Under the pieces are notes generated by a model, which ran no database searches, had not been told where the DNA came from, and was given only the letters and a program-made list of their open reading frames with translations. 64,000 nt of DNA from Streptomyces sp. NBC_00654 (GTDB lineage: Bacteria; Actinomycetota; Actinomycetes; Streptomycetales; Streptomycetaceae). Numbering within the stretch: position 1 is the stretch's first letter; the number at the start of each line of letters is the position of its first letter. The stretch is taken from positions 124,001-188,000 of the forward strand of contig NZ_JAPEOB010000001.1 of the NCBI RefSeq assembly GCF_026341775.1, in the 5' to 3' direction. The position numbers and the translations under genes were made by a program. Positions 40,976 to 61,124 of this stretch are shown piece by piece.

Positions 40976-41172
40976 AGGTCACCCCCAGGCATGGTGACGG
41001 GCGGTCAGCCCTCCCGTGGGGGCCGCCCCCACGGGCCTGCCGCGATCTTGGGGTCCGGCAAACGGACTGTCATACAAACCACTGGTCAGGGTGGTGACGG
41101 ACGGTTACATCCCAGATGGCGGCAGCGGTACCCCACTGTATCCGTACCGCCCGTTTCGGGATGCGGTTTCCT

Positions 41173-50559: not shown

Positions 50560-51942
50560 TCAGCTGCCGAGCCCCCGCCAGCCACCCTCGTCCACACCGC
50601 CGGGAATGGCCGCCCCCGCGTCGTACGGCTCACGGGTGAAGACGAACGAGCCCAGGTCCAGATGATCCACCGTCCCGTCGTCGGCGCGGACGACACGCAG
50701 GGTCTCCCCCGCGTAGTAGCCGCCGAGGCCCGTCCAGGTTCCGTCCTGTTCGGCTCGGAAGGCCGCACCACGGCCCGCGGCGCGCAACGGCCGGAGCTCC
50801 AGACCGCGGTCCGCGATCAGCTTCAGCGCGAAGGTGTGGGTGCCCCAGTACCAGAGCCCGGTCAGGGCCAGCAGCTGCCCGTCCACCTCTGGCAGGGGAC
50901 GCCACGGCTCGGGGATCCGCGGCTCCGCCTCCGCGACGATCCGTACGAGGTCGGCGGCCACCTCCCCGGTGAACGGCCCGGACGTGGCGTTGCTGAGCAC
51001 GACAGCGGCGACGTCGTCCTCCACGCTGAACCACAGGGCGGCGAGGAAGCCGGGGAGCGACCCGGTGTGCCCGACGAGAGTACGGCCGCCCCGCCGCACG
51101 ACCTGGACGCCCAGACCGTAACCGCTCTGCCAGTCACCGGACTCGGACGGCGCCGAAGGTTCGCGCATCTCCCGCACGGAGGCGGCACACAGGACCCGTT
51201 CGTCCCCCTCCACGAGGAACGCGGCGAACCGGAGAAGATCGGCCGCGGTCGACCAGAGCTGACCGGCCGGCGCCATCAGACCGAGGTCCTCGACCTGCTC
51301 GGGCAGCAGGACATCGGCCCAGGGGTGCACGGCCCAGCCGCCCGCGTGCGGCGCCTGCGGCTGGGCGGACGTACGCCGCAGGCCCAGCGGCTCCAGGATC
51401 TCGCGGCGCAGCACCTCTTCCCAGGACGCTCCGCGCACCGCCTCGATCAGCGAACCGAGCAGGGTGTAGCCGGGGTTGGAGTAGTGGTGCCGGTGGCCGG
51501 CCGGGTGCGGCTGCGGCTTCTCACCGAGGACATCGGCGAGCTCCGGGCGGATGGTCCCCGGGGTCCGCTCCCACCAGGGAGAGGGCGCCTCGGCCCCCAG
51601 CCCCGCGCTGTGTCCCAGGAGCTGGTAGACGGTCACGTCACCCACTCCCGTGCCGGGAAGGTGCTTCTCCAGCGGGTCGTCCAGATGGATCAGGCCCTCG
51701 TCGCGCAACCGCATCACCAGTACGGCGGTGAACGTCTTGGTGATCGAGCCGATCCTGAACTGCGTATCGCTGTCCGGGGCATGCCCCTCGACACAGGTAC
51801 GGGCGCCGCTCCAGACAGGCTGTCCCTGCCGCTGAACCGCGGCCACGAGCGAGGGGGCACGCCCTTCGGCCTGCGCGGTGGCAGCACGGTGCAGCAGGGC
51901 ACGCCGGGTGCTGGGGAACAGTTCTTCGCTTGGAGTGGTCAT
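50560..51942 (-). CDS. Beta-lactamase-fold serine hydrolase
   Basis: 460 aa from the ATG at 51942 (frame open to 51999). Class C/esterase-type motifs: SITK (catalytic Ser-x-x-Lys) in RIGSITKTFTAVLV, YSN in HHYSNPGYTLLG and HTG in LVGHTGSLPGF. A C-terminal 100-residue beta domain follows. No signal peptide, so it is probably a cytoplasmic esterase or D-aminopeptidase-like enzyme rather than a classical secreted beta-lactamase. Confidence 0.87.
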   Translation of the reverse strand: MTTPSEELFPSTRRALLHRAATAQAEGRAPSLVAAVQRQGQPVWSGARTCVEGHAPDSDTQFRIGSITKTFTAVLVMRLRDEGLIHLDDPLEKHLPGTGVGDVTVYQLLGHSAGLGAEAPSPWWERTPGTIRPELADVLGEKPQPHPAGHRHHYSNPGYTLLGSLIEAVRGASWEEVLRREILEPLGLRRTSAQPQAPHAGGWAVHPWADVLLPEQVEDLGLMAPAGQLWSTAADLLRFAAFLVEGDERVLCAASVREMREPSAPSESGDWQSGYGLGVQVVRRGGRTLVGHTGSLPGFLAALWFSVEDDVAAVVLSNATSGPFTGEVAADLVRIVAEAEPRIPEPWRPLPEVDGQLLALTGLWYWGTHTFALKLIADRGLELRPLRAAGRGAAFRAEQDGTWTGLGGYYAGETLRVVRADDGTVDHLDLGSFVFTREPYDAGAAIPGGVDEGGWRGLGS

Positions 51943-52122
51943 GGTCCACACATACCCGGCCGCCCGGCCTGTGACGAGCCCTTTTCGCCAGGCGCCCACG
52001 GGCCCGCCGGACGGACGGCGGGCGCGGGGACGGCCACAGGGGAGGGACGGGCCGGCAAGCAGGGACGGCGGCGGAGAAGCAGGGCCGGGGGCGGAGAAGC
52101 AGGGCCGGGGGGGCGGTGCGCG

Positions 52123-52707
52123 TCAGTCCTTGCGGCTGTACTTCCTGACCAGCACCCCGTTCTCGAAGGAGCGCACGTCCTCCAGCGTGAATTCGGTGAC
52201 CGCGAAGTCCGACCCGAACATCGGCATCCCGCTCGCGTACACCAGTGGATACGTCTTGATCACCAGCTCGTCGATCTCGTCGAGCAGCTCTCCCGCCAGC
52301 TGCGAGCCACCGCAGAGCCAGATGTCCAGCTCGCTGTCCTCGGCCTTGAGCTCCCTGACCCGGGCGACCAGGCCCTCGGAGATGATCTCCACATTCGGGT
52401 CCGGTGACTCGGCGAGCGTCCGGGACGCCACGAACTCCCTCAGATGGCCGTACGGGCTGGTGATGCCCATGTCCAGCGCCAGCTGATAGCTGGACCGCCC
52501 CTGGACCACGGTGTCGAAGCGCCCGTGCTTCGCGTCGTGGAGTCCGTGCGCCTCGCGGCCCTGGACCGCGATCGTCTCCGGGTACTCCGAGGTGAGAAAC
52601 CCGAGGAACTCCTCGCTGACGAAGGGATACATCGTCGACGCATCGCCCTGGGGATCGCCGATGAACCCGTCGATCGAGCAGGCGATGAAGTACGTGAGCT
52701 TTCGCAT
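52123..52707 (-). CDS. Dihydrofolate-reductase-family protein (RibD C-terminal type)
   Basis: 194 aa. DHFR-like fold: RKLTYFIACSIDGFIGD at the N-terminus and DIWLCGGSQLAGELLDEIDELVIKTYPLV in the centre. In Streptomyces such stand-alone RibD-C/DHFR-like reductases are abundant, with unknown substrates. Divergent from a TetR gene with an operator-like inverted repeat between, so it is probably controlled by it. Confidence 0.88.
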   Translation of the reverse strand: MRKLTYFIACSIDGFIGDPQGDASTMYPFVSEEFLGFLTSEYPETIAVQGREAHGLHDAKHGRFDTVVQGRSSYQLALDMGITSPYGHLREFVASRTLAESPDPNVEIISEGLVARVRELKAEDSELDIWLCGGSQLAGELLDEIDELVIKTYPLVYASGMPMFGSDFAVTEFTLEDVRSFENGVLVRKYSRKD

Positions 52708-52786
52708 GTGTTCCCCGTTCCACGTTCGGCACAGGCCGAAGAGTCCTGTTCAAGGTGACAGCCACGGCATCCACGCACCGCGCCTC

Positions 52787-52822
52787 AACCACTTCGCTTA
52801 TAGTGCTTCATGTGTAGTGGTT
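52787..52822. promoter_or_regulatory. Inverted repeat between DHFR-like and TetR genes
   Basis: AACCACT (52787-52793) and AGTGGTT (52816-52822) are a perfect inverted repeat in the divergent intergenic region, in an AT-richer stretch, a probable TetR operator. Confidence 0.5.
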
Positions 52823-52876
52823 AAGCAAGCCTCTTTTGCGGGAGGCGATCAGCGGAGACCTGCGAGGAGAAGAGCC

Positions 52877-53452
52877 ATGGCGAAGAACCCCGAGCGCAGA
52901 ACGGCGCTCACGGACGCGGCGATCGAGGTGCTGGCGCACGAAGGAGCGCGCGGGCTCACCTTCCGCGCGGTGGATGGGCGGGCCGGTGTGCCGGTGGGCA
53001 CGGCCTCCAACTACTTCAGCAGCCGCGACGACCTGTTCATGCAGGCGGGCGCGCGCATCAACAGCCGTATGACACCCGACCCGGACCGGGTCGAACAGGC
53101 GATGCGCCCCGCGCCCTCCCGCGAACTGATCGCCGATCTGATGCGCTGGCTCGTCCAGCGCATGGCCGAGGACCGCACCGGCTATCTGGCCATGCTGGAA
53201 CTCCGGCTGGAGGCCACCCGCCGGCCCGCCCTGCGGGCACAGCTGACGCGGACGGTGCGCACGGCCTTCGACGAGAGCGCCCGGTTCCACCGGGACGCGG
53301 AACTCCCCGGCGACTCCGACGCGTTCCTCGTCCTCTACCTGGCCATGACCGGTGTGCTCCTGGAGCACTTCACCCTGCCCGACATGCTCGGCGACACCGA
53401 ACTGGACCGGGTGGTGGAGACCGTCGTCACGCGCGTCATGCCCCTGCGGTAG
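52877..53452 (+). CDS. TetR-family transcriptional regulator
   Basis: 191 aa from the ATG at 52877, preceded by GAGGAGAAG. HTH: RTALTDAAIEVLAHEGARGLTFRAV then AGVPVGTASNYFSSRDDLF, the standard TetR pattern. The C-terminal helical domain begins near residue 70. It sits opposite the DHFR-like gene and probably represses it and itself. Confidence 0.9.
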   Translation: MAKNPERRTALTDAAIEVLAHEGARGLTFRAVDGRAGVPVGTASNYFSSRDDLFMQAGARINSRMTPDPDRVEQAMRPAPSRELIADLMRWLVQRMAEDRTGYLAMLELRLEATRRPALRAQLTRTVRTAFDESARFHRDAELPGDSDAFLVLYLAMTGVLLEHFTLPDMLGDTELDRVVETVVTRVMPLR

Positions 53453-53624
53453 ACGGCCACGAGGCGTCGGCACGGTTCATCACCCGCAGCGACCGGGGCA
53501 CGGTACGGACGCACAGGGGCGCCGGGGCTTCTTGCCGGGAGGATGTCGCCGACAGCCGACAGCCGGCGGACGAGAGGGGAAAGGGGAGTACCCACGCCTT
53601 TCCACTCTCAACATATAGCGCATG

Positions 53625-53647
53625 GGGGGCCTTGCGGCAAGGCCCCC
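53625..53647. promoter_or_regulatory. Rifamycin-associated element (RAE)-type palindrome upstream of helR
   Basis: Eleven bases GGGGGCCTTGC (53625-53635), a central G, then the exact complement GCAAGGCCCCC (53637-53647). The core GGCCTTGCGGCAAGGCC corresponds to the rifamycin-associated element known upstream of rifamycin-inactivating genes and helR in actinomycetes. It lies 92 bp before the chosen start codon, in a spot where it can act as the promoter element. Confidence 0.8.
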
Positions 53648-53739
53648 TCCGTACCGCAGAATCGTCCGCCGAGGCCACCGCCGGCCCGAACGTCCCGCCG
53701 GACGCGACGGCCGCAACGGCCTCAGATCGGAGTCATGCC

Positions 53740-55887
53740 GTGCACCCCCTGACCACCAGCGCGTTCGACCTTCCCGACCGTCTCTCCCCCAAGGCCGACC
53801 CGGCGCTGATCGCCGCCGACGAGCGTCACTTCGCGGCCATCGCGGACTGCCTCGAAGCGTCGCTCGCCGAACTGTCCGACCGCCTCGACGCCGAGCGCCG
53901 GGCGCCCGGGGTCATCGGCCGGCAGGCCATGGACCGGGACCTGGAGATCCACCGGCTGACCGCGCGCCTGCGCGCACTGCGCCGCTTCGGCCTGGACCTG
54001 TGCCTCGGGCACATGGTCAGCGAGGAGAGCGGCGAAACCGTGTACGTCGGACGGTTCGGCCTGACGGACAGCGCGGACCGCCGGCTCCTGCTCGACTGGC
54101 GCTCCCCCGCCGCCGAGCCGTTCTTCGGGGCCACCCACGCCAACCCGATGGGACTGACCAGCCGCCGCAGGTACCGCTGGACCCGCGGCCGGATCAGCGA
54201 CTACTGGGACGAGGTGTTCACCTCGGACGGGTTCGCCGGGAACGCCGCACTCGACGACCAGTCCGCCTTCATCGCCAGCCTGGGCAGCAACCGGTCCGCG
54301 CGGATGCGCGATGTGCTCGGCACCATCCAGGCCGACCAGGACGCCATCATCCGCGCGGGCTCCCGCGGCGCTCTCGTCGTCGACGGCGGGCCGGGCACGG
54401 GCAAGACCGTCGTCGCCCTGCACCGCTCCGCCTATCTCCTCTACTCCGACCCCCGCCTCGGTCACCGCCGCGGCGGCGTCCTGTTCGTCGGTCCGCACCA
54501 GCCCTACCTGGGGTACGTCGCCGATGTCCTCCCCAGCCTCGGCGAGGAGGGCGTGCGGACCTGCACCCTGCGCGACCTCGTCACCGAAGGAGCCGAGGCG
54601 ACGGCCGAGACCGACCCGGCCGTGGCCCGGCTGAAGTCCTCCGCGGAGCTGGTCAAGGCGGTCGAGACGGCCGTCAGGTTCTACGAGGACCCGCCCGCCG
54701 GGGGAATGACGGTCACGACCCACTGGTCCGACATCCGGCTGAGCGCCGGCGACTGGGCCGCGGCGTTCGAAGCGGCGGAACCCGGTACGCCGCACAACGA
54801 GGCGCACGACCAGATCTGGGAGGAGCTGCTCACGATCCTCGTGGACAAGCACGACGGCGATGCCCCGGACGACCAGCTCCGCGCGTCGCTGACGCGGAAC
54901 AGGGAACTGCGCACGGCCTTCAACCGCGCATGGCCGCTGCTCGAAGCGGCCGACATCGTCGGAGACCTGTGGTCGGTACCCGCGTATCTGCGCAAGTGCG
55001 CTCCCTGGCTCGGATCCGACGAGGTGGCGCTGCTGCAGCGCGGGGACGCCCGTGCCTGGACGGTGTCCGACCTGCCGATCCTGGACGCGGCACGGCAGCG
55101 GATCGGCGACCCGGAGGCGTCGCGGCGCAGGCGGCGGCACAGAGCGGCGGTCGCCGCCGAACGCGAGCACATGGACAAGGTCGTCGACGCCCTGCTCGAA
55201 GCCGACGACGACGGGGAGGGCCTGGTCACGATGCTGCGCGGGAAGGACATCCAGAACACCCTGGTCGACGAGAGCGCACCGACCGGCATCGAGCCCGACC
55301 TGCTCGCCGGCCCGTTCGCGCACATCGTCGTGGACGAGGCCCAGGAACTGACCGACGCGGAGTGGCAGATGCTGCTGCTCCGGTGCCCCTCCCGGAGCTT
55401 CACCATCGTCGGCGACCGGGCCCAGGCCAGGCACGGCTTCACGGAGTCATGGCAGGAACGGCTCGAACGGGCCGGCCTCGACCGGATCGGCCTGGCCTCC
55501 CTGAGCGTCAACTACCGGACGCCGGAAGAGATCATGGCGGAAGCCGAGCCGGTCATCCGCGCGGTGCTCCCGGACGCCAACGTCCCGGCCTCGATCCGCA
55601 GCAGCGGTCTCCCCGTCGTCCACGGATCCGTCGCCGAACGGGACTCGATCCTCGGTGCCTGGCTCGCCGCGCATACCGACGGGATCGCCTGCGTCATCGG
55701 CGATCCCACGTTCCCGGAGACGCCCCGCGTCCGGTCGCTGACCCCGGAGCTGTCGAAGGGACTCGAATTCGACCTGGTCGTCCTCATCGACCCGGACACG
55801 TTCGGCGAGGGCGTCGGAGGAGCGGTCGACCGCTATGTCGCGATGACCCGGGCCACCCAGCAACTCGTCATCCTCACGAGCGGCTGA
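53740..55887 (+). CDS. helR: HelR-type helicase-like protein protecting RNA polymerase
   Basis: 715 aa from the GTG at 53740 (GGAG upstream at 53729-53732). An open frame to 53632 would start inside the RAE and is rejected. The N-terminal about 110 residues hold a coiled coil, as in HelD/HelR where it enters the polymerase. The superfamily 1 motor has Walker A GGPGTGKTVVALHRSA near residue 216, Walker B VVDEAQELTDAEW near 530, and LTPELSKGLEFDLVVL and MTRATQQLVIL near the end. The class displaces RNA polymerase from DNA; HelR also dislodges rifamycins. The RAE upstream supports HelR over housekeeping HelD. Confidence 0.87.
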   Translation: MHPLTTSAFDLPDRLSPKADPALIAADERHFAAIADCLEASLAELSDRLDAERRAPGVIGRQAMDRDLEIHRLTARLRALRRFGLDLCLGHMVSEESGETVYVGRFGLTDSADRRLLLDWRSPAAEPFFGATHANPMGLTSRRRYRWTRGRISDYWDEVFTSDGFAGNAALDDQSAFIASLGSNRSARMRDVLGTIQADQDAIIRAGSRGALVVDGGPGTGKTVVALHRSAYLLYSDPRLGHRRGGVLFVGPHQPYLGYVADVLPSLGEEGVRTCTLRDLVTEGAEATAETDPAVARLKSSAELVKAVETAVRFYEDPPAGGMTVTTHWSDIRLSAGDWAAAFEAAEPGTPHNEAHDQIWEELLTILVDKHDGDAPDDQLRASLTRNRELRTAFNRAWPLLEAADIVGDLWSVPAYLRKCAPWLGSDEVALLQRGDARAWTVSDLPILDAARQRIGDPEASRRRRRHRAAVAAEREHMDKVVDALLEADDDGEGLVTMLRGKDIQNTLVDESAPTGIEPDLLAGPFAHIVVDEAQELTDAEWQMLLLRCPSRSFTIVGDRAQARHGFTESWQERLERAGLDRIGLASLSVNYRTPEEIMAEAEPVIRAVLPDANVPASIRSSGLPVVHGSVAERDSILGAWLAAHTDGIACVIGDPTFPETPRVRSLTPELSKGLEFDLVVLIDPDTFGEGVGGAVDRYVAMTRATQQLVILTSG

Positions 55888-55899
55888 GGGCCGTCCCGG

Positions 55900-56274
55900 C
55901 TACTCCGCGTGTGCGGCAGCGGCCTCGGCCAGCTGGTCGAAGGTGCGGACCAGTACCGCCCGCCGTTCCTCCTTGTAGTCCTGCGAGGGTTCCAGATCGT
56001 CGATCGTCCGCTCCCAGACGGCTATGAAGTGCTTCTTCCACTTCTCCACCAGCTCCGGGCGCAGCAGGGTGTCCGAGGTGTGGCCGGCCCGGGTGAGGAC
56101 GGTCAGCAGCTCCAGCTGGCACGGCACGGCCACGCCCCAGTACTCGTCGGCCTCGATCTCGACCGGATCGCCGTCCATCGCCTCGGCGACCTCCGCGACG
56201 AGCCGGTCGATGAAGGACGACACATAGTCCCTGGCCGTGTCGCTCTCGAAGTTCCCGCTGCCCCACGTGCCCAT
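55900..56274 (-). CDS. DUF4259-domain protein
   Basis: 124 aa from the ATG at 56274. It opens MGTWGSGNFESDTARDYVSS, the DUF4259 signature, and the rest is mostly helical with many Glu. Function unknown; homologues often sit near immunity-type genes, but nothing here decides that. Convergent with helR, 12 bp between stops. Confidence 0.85.
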   Translation of the reverse strand: MGTWGSGNFESDTARDYVSSFIDRLVAEVAEAMDGDPVEIEADEYWGVAVPCQLELLTVLTRAGHTSDTLLRPELVEKWKKHFIAVWERTIDDLEPSQDYKEERRAVLVRTFDQLAEAAAAHAE

Positions 56275-56377
56275 GGCTTCTCCTCCGCATGGTGGCGTCA
56301 CATCACGATGGGGACATCGAAGCAGGGAGCACTGACAAAGCGGTCCGGGGAGACCTTCGCCGCGGCACGGCGAACGC

Positions 56378-56878
56378 TCAAGCGGTACGGGTGTGGTGGT
56401 CCAGCAGGCACGTGAGCAACCGCGTGAACTGCTCGCGCTCGGCCGGAGTCAACGGCGCGAGCAGTTCGTCGTGGAGGCCGTCCAGGACGTCGTCGAGAAG
56501 GCGGAGCTGACGGCGGCCCCGGGCGGAGATCGTGATGATGTTGCGGCGCCGGTCGGCGGGATCCGGTGCCCGCTCGACGAACCCGCGCTCGGCCAGTTCG
56601 TTGAGCACGCCGACCATGTCGCTGCGGTAGATGCCGGTACGCCGGCTCAGCAACGCCTGGCTGCCGGGCCCCAGATCCTGGAGCGAGGCGAGCACGGCGT
56701 AGTGCCACTTACGGGTGCCGACCCGGGTCAGCCCCTCGGAGATCAGCCGGTCCGACCGTACGGTCAGCTGCGACAGCAGCTGGCTCGCCCGCCGGCGCAG
56801 CCTGTCGGGCGTCTTGAGCGCGCCGTCGTCGGGCAGGTCCGCGGCCTCGGATCCGGTCATGGCGCCCATCCTACTCAT
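56378..56878 (-). CDS. MarR-family transcriptional regulator
   Basis: 166 aa from the ATG at 56878; an inner ATG at 56860 (GGATGGG upstream) is possible. The winged HTH lies in YAVLASLQDLGPGSQALLSRRTGIYRSDMVGVLNELAERG and the wing PDPADRRRNIITISARG. Divergent from the dienelactone hydrolase, with two matching palindromes between (56881-56897 and 56922-56938), it very probably represses both. Confidence 0.9.
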   Translation of the reverse strand: MSRMGAMTGSEAADLPDDGALKTPDRLRRRASQLLSQLTVRSDRLISEGLTRVGTRKWHYAVLASLQDLGPGSQALLSRRTGIYRSDMVGVLNELAERGFVERAPDPADRRRNIITISARGRRQLRLLDDVLDGLHDELLAPLTPAEREQFTRLLTCLLDHHTRTA

Positions 56879-56880
56879 TG

Positions 56881-56897
56881 CGTTAGTCCGACTAACG
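56881..56897. promoter_or_regulatory. MarR operator copy 1
   Basis: CGTTAGTCCGACTAACG: arms CGTTAGT/ACTAACG, next to the MarR start. Confidence 0.8.
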
Positions 56898-56921
56898 ATG
56901 TAGGTTCGCTCGCGCCAAGAT

Positions 56922-56938
56922 CGTTAGTGCAACTAACG
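56922..56938. promoter_or_regulatory. MarR operator copy 2
   Basis: CGTTAGTGCAACTAACG carries the same arms as copy 1. Centres are 41 bp apart, about four helical turns, so two dimers would bind on one face. Confidence 0.8.
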
Positions 56939-56969
56939 TTGTTCGAGCGGACTCCAAGGAAGGAAGATC

Positions 56970-57719
56970 TTGCCCACCACGACAGTACTGATTCCCACCC
57001 CGGACGGCCGGGCCGACGCTTTCGCCGCTTTCCCCGACGGTGGCGAGCGGCACCCGGGGGTGCTGCTGTACCAGGACGCCTTCGGCCTGCGGCCCGAGTT
57101 GGAGGACAAGGCCCGCGAACTGGCCGCGCACGGCTACTACGTGCTCGTCCCCAACGTCTACTACCGGCACGGCCCGGCACCGGTGACCGAGCTTCCCGGG
57201 CACATCGGGAAGGAGATCCGGCCCGCGGTCATCGACCGGCTGATGCCCCTGATCACGGGACACACCACCGAAACGGTCCTGCGCGACGCCGACGCGTACC
57301 TCACGTTCCTCACCACCCGGCCCGAGGTCACCGCCGGACCCGTCGCCGCGATCGGCTACTGCATGGGCGGCGCCCTGGCCGTACGCACCGCGGCGGCCCA
57401 CCCCGGCCGGGTCGCCGCCGTCGCCGGATTCCACCCCAGCCCCCTGGTCACCGACGCGCCCGACAGCCCGCACCACCTCTTCGGCGAACTCACCGCACAG
57501 GTCCATCTCGGGCTCGCCGAGGGCGACATGACCCCCGAGACCACCCGTGGACTCCTCCAGACCCTGGACGCCGCGGGTGTCGAGCACACCACGGAGATCT
57601 ACCCCGGTACCGTCCACGGCTTCACCATGTCCGACACCGACGCCTTCAGCCCCTTGGCGGTGCGGCGCCACTGGGACCGCCTGCTCCTGCTGCTCCGCCG
57701 GACCCTGCCCGCCGTCTGA
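56970..57719 (+). CDS. Dienelactone-hydrolase-family protein
   Basis: 249 aa from a TTG start at 56970, with AAGGAAG upstream. The DLH nucleophile Cys is in AIGYCMGGALAV, and the His of the triad is in GTVHGFTMSD. The enzyme hydrolyses dienelactone or related esters in aromatic degradation or detoxification; substrate unknown. Divergent from a MarR gene whose operators overlap its promoter, so it should be induced by an aromatic-type compound. Its stop is directly adjacent to that of convergent dnaB. Confidence 0.88.
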   Translation: MPTTTVLIPTPDGRADAFAAFPDGGERHPGVLLYQDAFGLRPELEDKARELAAHGYYVLVPNVYYRHGPAPVTELPGHIGKEIRPAVIDRLMPLITGHTTETVLRDADAYLTFLTTRPEVTAGPVAAIGYCMGGALAVRTAAAHPGRVAAVAGFHPSPLVTDAPDSPHHLFGELTAQVHLGLAEGDMTPETTRGLLQTLDAAGVEHTTEIYPGTVHGFTMSDTDAFSPLAVRRHWDRLLLLLRRTLPAV

Positions 57720-59195
57720 TCAGGTCTGCGCCATGTCGACGAAGCGGGAGTAGTGGCCCTGGAAGGCCACGGTGATGGTGGCCGTCGGGCCGTTACGGTG
57801 CTTGGCCACGATCAGGTCCGCCTCGCCGGCCCGGGGCGACTCCTTCTCGTACGCGTCCTCGCGGTGCAGCAGGATGACCATGTCCGCGTCCTGCTCGATG
57901 GAGCCGGACTCACGCAGGTCGGAGACCATCGGCTTCTTGTCCGTACGCTGCTCCGGTCCACGGTTCAGCTGCGAGAGGGCGATGACCGGGAGCTCCAGCT
58001 CCTTGGCCAGCAGCTTGAGGTTTCGGGACATGTCCGAGACCTCCTGCTGCCGGCTCTCGGCGCGCTTCGCGCCGCCGGACTGCATCAGCTGGAGATAGTC
58101 GATGACCACGAGCTTGAGTTCGTTGCGCTGCTTGAGGCGACGGCACTTCGCGCGGATCTCCATCATGGAGAGGTTCGGCGAATCGTCGATGTACAGCGGG
58201 GCTGCCGAGACATCGGGCATCCGCCGGGCGAGCCGCGTCCAGTCCTCGTCGGTCATCGTGCCGGAGCGCATGTGGTGCAGAGCCACCCGCGCCTCCGCGG
58301 ACAGCAGACGCATCGCGATCTCGTTGCGCCCCATTTCGAGCGAGAAGATCACGCTCGGCAGGTTGCTCTTGATCGAACAGGCCCGCGCGAAGTCCAGGGC
58401 CAGTGTGGACTTTCCCATGGCGGGACGCGCCGCGATGACAATCATCTGGCCGGGGTGCAGCCCGTTCGTCAGGGCGTCCAGATCCGTGAAGCCGGTCGGC
58501 ACACCGGTCATCTCGCCGCTGCGCGAACCGATCGCCTCGATCTCGTCGAGCGCGCCTTCCATGATGTCGCCGAGCGGCAGATAGTCCTCGCTGGTCCGCT
58601 GCTCGGTGACGGCGTAGATCTCGGCCTGCGCGGAGTTGACGATCTCGTCGACGTCCCCGTCGGCCGCGTATCCCATCTGCGTGATCTTCGTGCCGGCCTC
58701 GACGAGCCGCCGGAGGACCGCCCGCTCGTGGACGATCTCCGCGTAGTACGAGGCGTTGGCCGCGGTCGGCACCGACTGGACCAGGGTGTGCAGATACGGG
58801 GCTCCGCCGACCTTGGTGATCTCCCCCCGCTTGACCAGTTCGGCGGCGACCGTGATCGGGTCGGCCGGCTCGCCCTTGGCGTAGAGGTCGAGGATCGCGG
58901 TGTAGACCGTCTCATGGGCCGGGCGGTAGAAGTCGTGGCCCTTGATGATCTCCACGACGTCGGCGATGGCGTCCTTGGACAGCAGCATGCCGCCGAGCAC
59001 CGACTGCTCCGCGTCGAGATCCTGCGGCGGCACCCGCTCGAAGCCGGGGGAGCCACCGTCCCAGCCGTCCTCCGAGCCCCGGTCGTGCCGGTCCTCGCGC
59101 CCCTTGCGGTCTCCGCGGCGCTGACGGGAAACGGGCAGACGGTCACTGGGACCGGTGTCGGCCCAGGGGTCGTCCAAAGGCTCGGGAATGCTCAC
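57720..59195 (-). CDS. dnaB: Replicative DNA helicase DnaB
   Basis: 491 aa from the GTG at 59195, preceded by GGAGGAGG; the frame extends to 59234 in Arg/Gly-rich sequence that I leave out. N-terminal domain begins near PPQDLDAEQSVLGGMLLS; the RecA-like domain has Walker A AARPAMGKST near residue 258, SLEMGRNEIAMRLLSAEA, VVIDYLQLMQ (Walker B) and the C-terminal RGSGSIEQDADMV-like segment. No intein interrupts the motifs. It unwinds DNA at the fork. It lies opposite the MATE gene, with DnaA-box-like words between. Confidence 0.96.
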   Translation of the reverse strand: MSIPEPLDDPWADTGPSDRLPVSRQRRGDRKGREDRHDRGSEDGWDGGSPGFERVPPQDLDAEQSVLGGMLLSKDAIADVVEIIKGHDFYRPAHETVYTAILDLYAKGEPADPITVAAELVKRGEITKVGGAPYLHTLVQSVPTAANASYYAEIVHERAVLRRLVEAGTKITQMGYAADGDVDEIVNSAQAEIYAVTEQRTSEDYLPLGDIMEGALDEIEAIGSRSGEMTGVPTGFTDLDALTNGLHPGQMIVIAARPAMGKSTLALDFARACSIKSNLPSVIFSLEMGRNEIAMRLLSAEARVALHHMRSGTMTDEDWTRLARRMPDVSAAPLYIDDSPNLSMMEIRAKCRRLKQRNELKLVVIDYLQLMQSGGAKRAESRQQEVSDMSRNLKLLAKELELPVIALSQLNRGPEQRTDKKPMVSDLRESGSIEQDADMVILLHREDAYEKESPRAGEADLIVAKHRNGPTATITVAFQGHYSRFVDMAQT

Positions 59196-59653
59196 CGGGC
59201 CACCTCCTCCCGTCCGCTTCGCGGACCTAGCCATGCCACTCTTTCTTACGGCACGGCACCGACAAACAGGACGCCCGACTCCGCTTCCGGCGCGTCGAGT
59301 TCTGCGGGTTCCGAGGCCGGAACGGAGTGCGGGCGCCGGACCACGGTAGGCCGCTCCGCACCGTCAGCCAATCTGGTTATCCACAGGGCATGTGGACGAC
59401 GGACCAGATGCTGTGGAGAACTCCGCCGAACCTGTGCACGGACCAGGGGACAGCACTGTGGACAAACTCATAGCCAACCGACCATCAATGCCCTGACCTG
59501 CATGTTCTCCATCCACTGACTGTGGGGGAGAAAAACTTTTGCCCTCGGCTCAAGTTCGCCGCGCACCGCGCACACATGCGCGCACAGCCAGGGCAAAAGT
59601 AAGGACTGAAATGGCATTGCATCTCTTACCTGTGGAAGATTAGATTAACCCCC
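59196..59653. other. 458-bp divergent intergenic region between dnaB and the MATE gene
   Basis: No gene. DnaA-box-like exact words TTATCCACA at 59377-59385 and TGTGGACAA at 59457-59465, with TGTGGACGA and TGTGGAGAA near-matches between. A TAGATT at 59641-59646, seven bases before the MATE ATG, looks like a leaderless -10. Confidence 0.6.
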
Positions 59654-61091: not shown

Positions 61092-61110
61092 CGCGACCAC
61101 GGCCACCGTT

Positions 61111-61124
61111 GTTTCACGTGAAAC
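61111..61124. other. parS site (perfect), second of a pair
   Basis: GTTTCACGTGAAAC, lying just before the rplI terminator hairpin. Confidence 0.88.

Follow-up and report, generated by a model that had tools for sequence, protein, structure and literature searches.

The rifamycin-associated element (RAE) has been described as a 19-bp palindrome upstream of rifamycin-resistance genes (PMC10719064, PMC12802891). In Mycobacterium smegmatis the element overlaps the -35 hexamer of a mapped downstream promoter (PMC10719064), and Streptomyces venezuelae is reported to carry five helD genes, one of which has an RAE (PMC8655204). How the RAE works was stated to be open in a paper of January 2026 (PMC12802891). 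Here we analysed a stretch of 64,000 nucleotides from Streptomyces sp. NBC_00654 (contig NZ_JAPEOB010000001.1, positions 124,001 to 188,000; hereafter the window), in which an RAE precedes helR, a gene of the HelD family. By sequence comparison, this RAE is the middle part of a larger conserved module, a context that is new and that the initial annotation of the window had missed. The module carries promoter-like hexamers at mirror positions on the two sides of the palindrome, and the reading we favour, and hold to be rather probable, is that the RAE provides a shared -35 and an operator core for two overlapping, back-to-back and mutually exclusive promoters, the left of which would often be a dead end.

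The RAE studied here shares with the described element its core, its position before helR and before rox (the rifampin monooxygenase gene), and the overlap with a rightward -35. It differs in lying inside a module of ~120 bp, most copies of which have a hairpin besides a mirror-image promoter-like element directed leftward, whereas the published accounts, in their accessible portions (PMC10719064, PMC12802891), describe only the palindrome and rightward promoters. The openly licensed literature that we searched, which excludes the original RAE and HelR papers, gave no description of the RAE as a site of leftward promotion or termination.

Two other systems are similar in design. In Bacillus subtilis, according to PMC12802891, a stronger antisense promoter with a 19-bp spacer makes a short terminated RNA and holds helD down until low rifampicin arrests it. 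What the module would share with this alarm is a leftward promoter opposing the resistance promoter, the 19-bp spacer and a short terminated RNA upstream; however, the B. subtilis promoters are described as convergent, with 39 bp between their starts, whereas those predicted here stand back to back, share the -35 and would start ~65 bp apart. At bidirectional promoters of Escherichia coli, RNA polymerase is reported to sit in one orientation only, and when one direction is activated the opposite one can be repressed (PMC12825309). Those promoters share the -10 and mostly have starts 18, 10 or 23 bp apart, in contrast to the shared -35 and the hexamers at ±21 to ±26 from the RAE centre seen here.

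A conserved module around the palindrome

The initial annotation had reported an exact 23-bp palindrome upstream of helR and had taken it for an RAE. The palindrome is indeed perfect (Table 1), but perfect odd palindromes with 11-bp arms occur three times in the window, against 0.10 expected from 60 first-order Markov simulations (6 of which had at least one), and the remaining two, centred at 41024 and 61143, resemble terminator hairpins. Since the window thus holds two more palindromes of equal size, what identifies the element is its sequence rather than its palindromic form. The RAE core, SSNCTTGCGGCAAGNSS, is present in exactly two copies in the 9.6-Mb genome (a control with the reversed pattern also gave two). 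One copy precedes helR and the other lies ~155 bp upstream of a rox frame that scores 866.9 bits with the NCBIfam profile (cut-off 800). Judged by this core and its placement, the window palindrome is a further example of the known RAE.

Conservation extends beyond the palindrome. Across 74 aligned HelR loci it reaches from about -60 to +61 of the RAE centre, fading both ways. A covariance model, R1, was built on these 74 loci, in which the RAE had been picked by core and palindrome only, together with the two modules of the genome itself. The model finds exactly two full modules in the genome and a full module in 76 of 80 HelR loci; of the four misses (L017, L029, L063 and L069), L063 and L069 have just 284 and 380 bp upstream. 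Within the family, 111 of 121 genomes contain the module; within the class 143 of 296 do, covering 51 of 114 genera, and the other 153 class genomes gave no hit at E 1e-4. After removal of duplicates and of rows with less than 120 bp upstream, 174 model hits left 166 distinct modules, whose orientation was taken from the covariance-model strands.

Two sets of RAEs were chosen without reference to the flanks. One is the 74 HelR-locus RAEs. The other comes from a search of 296 phylum genomes by core pattern only, in which 25 were positive and the exact core was not found in 271; besides our own, 24 loci were opened, one per genome although several genomes had more sites, and some of these 24 are also among the 166 modules.

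Mirror hexamers on the two strands

To the right of the palindrome, positions +21 to +26 form the hexamer CANAAT, of which 164 of the 166 modules keep A2 and T6. At the mirror positions, -21 to -26 on the other strand, stands TANNNT, with T1, A2 and T6 again in 164 of 166. Each hexamer is 19 bp away from a TTGCSG (TTGCGG or TTGCCG) that the palindrome offers on the same strand, and the next best register has A2 and T6 in just 56 modules. The third base is the freest in both hexamers, while the first base is C in 160 of the right hexamers and T in 165 of the left ones. In the set of 74 RAEs, A-26, T-22, A-21, A+22 and T+26 are each present in 74 of 74.

Both hexamers were also found in all 24 core-only actinobacterial loci, 10 of which come from other classes, and there the middle of the left hexamer is variable (TAAATT, TATCCT, TATAGT, TAAAGT, TAAGGT, TACAAT and others). 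As a control, none of 12 viral contigs with the exact core had both hexamers, and downstream of these 12 cores there was no match to rifamycin-resistance genes of the families considered here. A further 38 loci have the left hexamer in 38 cases and the right one in 37, although these counts are not independent, as the hexamers helped to choose the orientation.

The left hexamer is kept both with tandem (60 of 60) and with divergent (67 of 67) upstream neighbours, as assigned for 128 of the 166 modules (one unclear) from rough gene calls based on G+C content at third codon positions. Being kept whatever the orientation of the neighbour, it would not serve to express the upstream gene. The right arm, in turn, fits the overlap of RAE and -35 known from M. 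smegmatis. A sense promoter at TATAGC was also considered, and was rejected because position 6 of this sequence is C in 74 of 74 loci.

The palindrome contains conserved bases outside the two -35 hexamers: C/G at ±5 occurs on both sides in 166 of 166 modules, and GGG/CCC at ±7 to ±9 in at least 158 of 166. A -35 alone needs no such bases, suggesting that a protein is bound at the RAE or that the palindrome has another reader. The RAE could accordingly be the operator of a rifamycin-responsive transcription factor acting on a single rightward promoter, with the left block being a further site for a protein or a chance product of descent from a palindrome. PMC12802891 and PMC10719064 both name an unknown factor as possible, although neither identifies one in its accessible portions. 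Such an operator, however, leaves unexplained why all 24 core-only loci have, precisely mirroring the right -10, a TANNNT with a free middle, and why a GG at start distance and a leftward terminator-like hairpin at that start (see below) accompany it. We therefore think it unlikely that an operator with one rightward promoter is the whole account.

A leftward hairpin and the proposed use of the two arms

Seven bases past the left hexamer begins a GG, and G occupies each predicted left-start position in 164 of 166 modules. The GG forms the first bases of a hairpin (hairpin 1), which is present at a score of at least 14 in 147 of 166 modules, with a loop of 3 to 15 bases and with the right arm ending at -33 in 122 of the 147. 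In the leftward direction, a T-tract (at least five T in eight bases) follows the hairpin in 79 of 147 modules, compared with 42 of 2,940 random upstream 12-mers; correspondingly, A to the left of the hairpin reaches 5.11 per 10 bases against 1.62 expected (p = 1.6e-23). In the module before the genome's own rox, a terminator scan returns, for the minus strand, GGCAAGGAG...CTCCTTGCC with TTTTGTTTTT directly after it. Hairpin 1 covaries: changes on both sides were counted in 96 cells, compared with 36.3 in shuffled and no more than 17 in slid controls. The alignment behind these counts had itself been fitted to the structure, which biases it in favour of that structure.

This covariation would also be expected if the module were a structured leader RNA, made of hairpin 1, the invariant linker and an RAE hairpin, and acting as an attenuator or riboswitch in the sense transcript. 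The counts of G.T cells in sense and of A.C cells in antisense are, however, nearly equal (47 versus 49 and 39 versus 43 in two alignments, A3 and A4, and 39 versus 41 in a third count), so that there is no wobble preference for a sense RNA, and the T-tract lies on the antisense side. The stem of the RAE itself never covaries, which leaves the leader without that support; being invariant, it gives no evidence either way on the RAE as a covarying stem. Moreover, positions 53300 to 53900 gave no Rfam match up to E 1, and a conserved rightward promoter upstream of the hairpin was not seen by eye. A leader RNA is, in our judgement, most improbable. Pairing of the linker with bases to the right of the RAE was likewise examined by eye and dropped, as it showed no compensation.

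Another reading is an alarm built as in B. subtilis, in which an antisense promoter within the leader runs left over the sense promoter and ends at the hairpin. The precedent has just such an antisense RNA, an intrinsic terminator upstream of helD and an antisense promoter with a 19-bp spacer (PMC12802891), and the arrangement would give the right sign of response for free. The modules, however, are unconserved right of +61, and the window copy, by eye, is without most of the conservation from +31 to +61. Among the conserved elements there is no antisense promoter of this type downstream, facing the sense promoter; the sole leftward promoter-like element kept in nearly all modules is found on the left side of the RAE, directed away from where the sense promoter lies. 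We consider a convergent arrangement highly unlikely for these modules.

We favour instead two back-to-back promoters on a shared -35. The right promoter, TTGCGG-19-CAGAAT in the window, would read into helR, and the left one, TTGCCG-19-TATGTT, would start 33 bp left of the RAE centre and meet the hairpin at once. Where the hairpin has a T-tract, which is about half of the modules with a hairpin, the left arm would yield only a dead-end RNA of ~35 nucleotides. From this layout we infer that both elements act as promoters and exclude one another: as the two -35 hexamers overlap, RNA polymerase would hold one orientation only. The better first base of the left -10 (T versus C) suggests that polymerase uses the left arm by default and that this use restrains the right arm, to which rifamycin would shift it.

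Several observations weigh against this reading. A consensus promoter scan was empty in both modules of the genome, the 19-bp spacers being long for a scan that allows 16-18 bp only. The window hairpin is without a T-tract, as are 68 of the 147 in all, and the covariation of the hairpin has no strand preference. Of eight loci with mycobacterial-type HelD, five have no RAE in the flanks examined; among the three that do, one left hexamer is shifted by 1 bp, and the hairpin appears weak or absent by eye. Two rightward promoters are described in M. smegmatis (PMC10719064), the upstream of which our model does not explain. Finally, simple competition between the arms has the wrong sign, for a polymerase arrested by rifamycin on the left arm should obstruct the right arm as well; induction in B. 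subtilis is reported to have been abolished by steric overlap (PMC12802891). For this reason we favour, and consider likely, a factor that binds the RAE and sets the promoter orientation.

Alternatively, the RAE may operate without a dedicated rifamycin receptor, with RNA polymerase itself as the sensor. In drug-free cells the polymerase would be drawn into the dead-end leftward orientation, rifamycin would disturb this cycle, and drug-free polymerase would then fire the opposite promoter. A kinetic step with the right sign is missing from this scheme, and we hold it to be doubtful.

Table 1. Features of the helR locus and its surroundings (window coordinates).
Feature	Position	Strand	Details
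Whole RAE module, helR copy	53570..53698	+	covariance model R1, 116.3 bits, 1-129/129
Hairpin at predicted leftward start (G 53603)	53578..53603	-	GGAAAGG, 12-base loop, CCTTTCC; no T-tract in window
Predicted -10 of leftward promoter, TATGTT	53610..53615	-	mirror position of right -10
RAE, perfect 23-bp odd palindrome	53625..53647	.	GGGGGCCTTGCGGCAAGGCCCCC; centre 53636
Predicted -35 of rightward promoter, TTGCGG	53632..53637	+	19 bp from right hexamer
Predicted -35 of leftward promoter, TTGCCG	53635..53640	-	palindrome on other strand; overlaps rightward -35
Predicted -10 of rightward (helR) promoter, CAGAAT	53657..53662	+	start predicted near G 53668
Ribosome-binding site GGAG	53729..53732	+	ahead of helR GTG 53740
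helR	53740..55887	+	715 residues, GTG start; NCBIfam NF041254 (motor_HelR) 1286.9 bits, cut-off 750
Beta-lactamase-like gene	50560-51999		flank of insert
Variable insert	52123-57719		RibD-like, TetR, helR, DUF4259, MarR, dienelactone-hydrolase-like frame
dnaB	57720-59234		flank of insert

HelR, its setting and the genes behind other modules

The GTG given in Table 1 is the best start for helR, and the reading frame closes at 55887. Besides its motor_HelR score (Table 1), the product scores 429.1 bits with motor_HelR_2 and 386.5 bits with HelD_MYCSM, and the solved M. smegmatis HelD (6yxu_H) is matched across residues 37-712 at E 1.5e-97, which makes the protein a class II HelD. Only this gene passes the motor_HelR cut-off in the genome, the scores of the four other HelD-like genes being lower. 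A tree of 25 proteins places it in one clade with 14 other HelRs (support 100/100), and the four other paralogues fall outside, some of them on long branches. By profile and phylogeny, the window protein is thus HelR and no housekeeping HelD, in agreement with the initial annotation. With its four other HelD paralogues the genome has no third RAE, which resembles what is reported for S. venezuelae (PMC8655204).

The protein shares with HelR (class II HelD, NF041254; in S. venezuelae SVEN_6029, PMC10719064) the full-length profile, the Walker A motif, DWRSP, the upstream RAE and, tentatively, an acidic loop region. Walker A, GPGTGKT at residue 217, is present in 81 of 81 proteins, and DWRSP at residue 119 (motif DWR[AS]P) in 77. 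The loop tip of mycobacterial HelD is needed for rifampicin resistance. The acidic stretch DDGE of the window protein (D490 in 75, D491 in 74 and E493 in 72 of the 81 proteins), in contrast to the E-D pair of the mycobacterial proteins, stands near the position of that tip, though its exact match is uncertain: in a hand-read alignment its D-G lies opposite E484-D485 of M. smegmatis, and the predicted structure is too poor to place the loop. Indeed, the prediction is of low confidence (mean predicted local distance difference test, pLDDT, 51) and was set aside as a basis for fold comparison. Its two long helices, 21-54 and 61-89, suggest the N-terminal coiled coil named in the initial annotation, a feature that a model of this quality leaves at the level of a suggestion.

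By analogy with its relatives, for which this is known, the window protein would bind RNA polymerase and help to shed rifamycin. RpoB is single in the genome, and we take its rifampicin region to be the sensitive form. From the sequence, induction by rifamycin and rifamycin tolerance would be expected in the strain.

The proposal that this trait sits in the core chromosome was not supported. We compared the dnaB neighbourhood (10-11 kb each) of 13 of 15 listed same-genus relatives by tblastn at E 1e-15. The beta-lactamase-like gene is present in 12 of the 13 neighbourhoods, whereas helR was found beside dnaB in none, nor were the RibD-like, TetR, DUF4259, MarR and putative dienelactone-hydrolase-like genes of the window. 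Conversely, dnaB was found in the flanks (up to 4 kb, some shorter) of none of 80 HelR loci from named genomes. helR thus lies in a lineage-specific insert between the beta-lactamase-like gene and dnaB: by these comparisons the dnaB neighbourhood is core, but helR is not a core gene. One copy of helR with its RAE module (L066) comes from a plasmid record, Streptomyces nigrescens HEK616 plasmid SNP1. Near dnaB, positions 61109-61124 of the window read TGTTTCACGTGAAACG, one base off the parS consensus.

Within 2.6 kb of the 166 modules, the first recognised gene is helR in 88 cases, rgt in 34, rox in 29, rph in 10, a DrrA-type ATP-binding cassette (ABC) transporter gene in 3 and none in 2. In 21 of the 34 rgt modules, rgt is followed by helR, and two of the 88 helR cases (L102 and L139) encode a HelR_2/HelD_MYCSM-type HelD rather than a motor_HelR protein. 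All 24 core-only loci precede a gene of rifamycin-resistance type: 11 rox-like (identified by BLAST to the genome's own Rox only, at 38-84% identity), 6 helR, 1 rgt, 3 arr and 3 rph, where partial Rph frames fell below a cut-off set for whole proteins. The 38 further loci all precede a gene, or a piece of one, matching helR, rox, rgt or rph.

The start of rgt is still readable in 42 modules that stand before helR (31), rox (8) or rph (3), with scores above all 166 shuffled controls. Such relics between the RAE and the helR, rox or rph gene are seen, for example, in L025, L035 and L106, and may be read either as repeated loss of rgt in place or as the module having moved together with the first rgt codons.

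In one family (f14; L167, L168 and L169), an RAE module stands before the gene of a DrrA-type ABC transporter ATPase (L168, 594-2191, plus strand). L168 and L169 pass the drrA cut-off, and L167, whose frame was taken short, is below it; in L168 the ATPase gene is followed by an ABC-2 permease gene. The transporter behind the module is a candidate rifamycin exporter. In L176 (2058-2978, minus strand), a module precedes the gene of an alpha/beta hydrolase that matched no NCBIfam family at E 1e-20 and may be an enzyme that modifies rifamycin. Two 10-kb loci carry a second full RAE module (L064, 3204-3332, minus strand; L065, 8043-8172, plus strand), and in L180 (447-2798, plus strand) the helR behind the module is split over two frames. 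In L197, where an RAE lies upstream of a mycobacterial-type helD, the sequence left of the element includes TTCGAACCCATGTTCGAT, which resembles a LexA box and makes a link of this helD neighbourhood with the DNA-damage response possible.

The palindrome together with both hexamers seems to be a specific probe for rifamycin-resistance genes, given 24 of 24 genomic loci against 0 of 12 viral ones. Two opposed promoters on one -35 palindrome would offer a concrete, testable architecture for rifamycin sensing. If this architecture is true, rifamycin sensing in actinobacteria would be a second solution, of similar design to the dual-promoter alarm of B. subtilis; and should the polymerase itself prove to be the sensor, modules of this one design would control resistance genes of at least five unrelated families (helR, rox, rgt, rph and arr) across the phylum.
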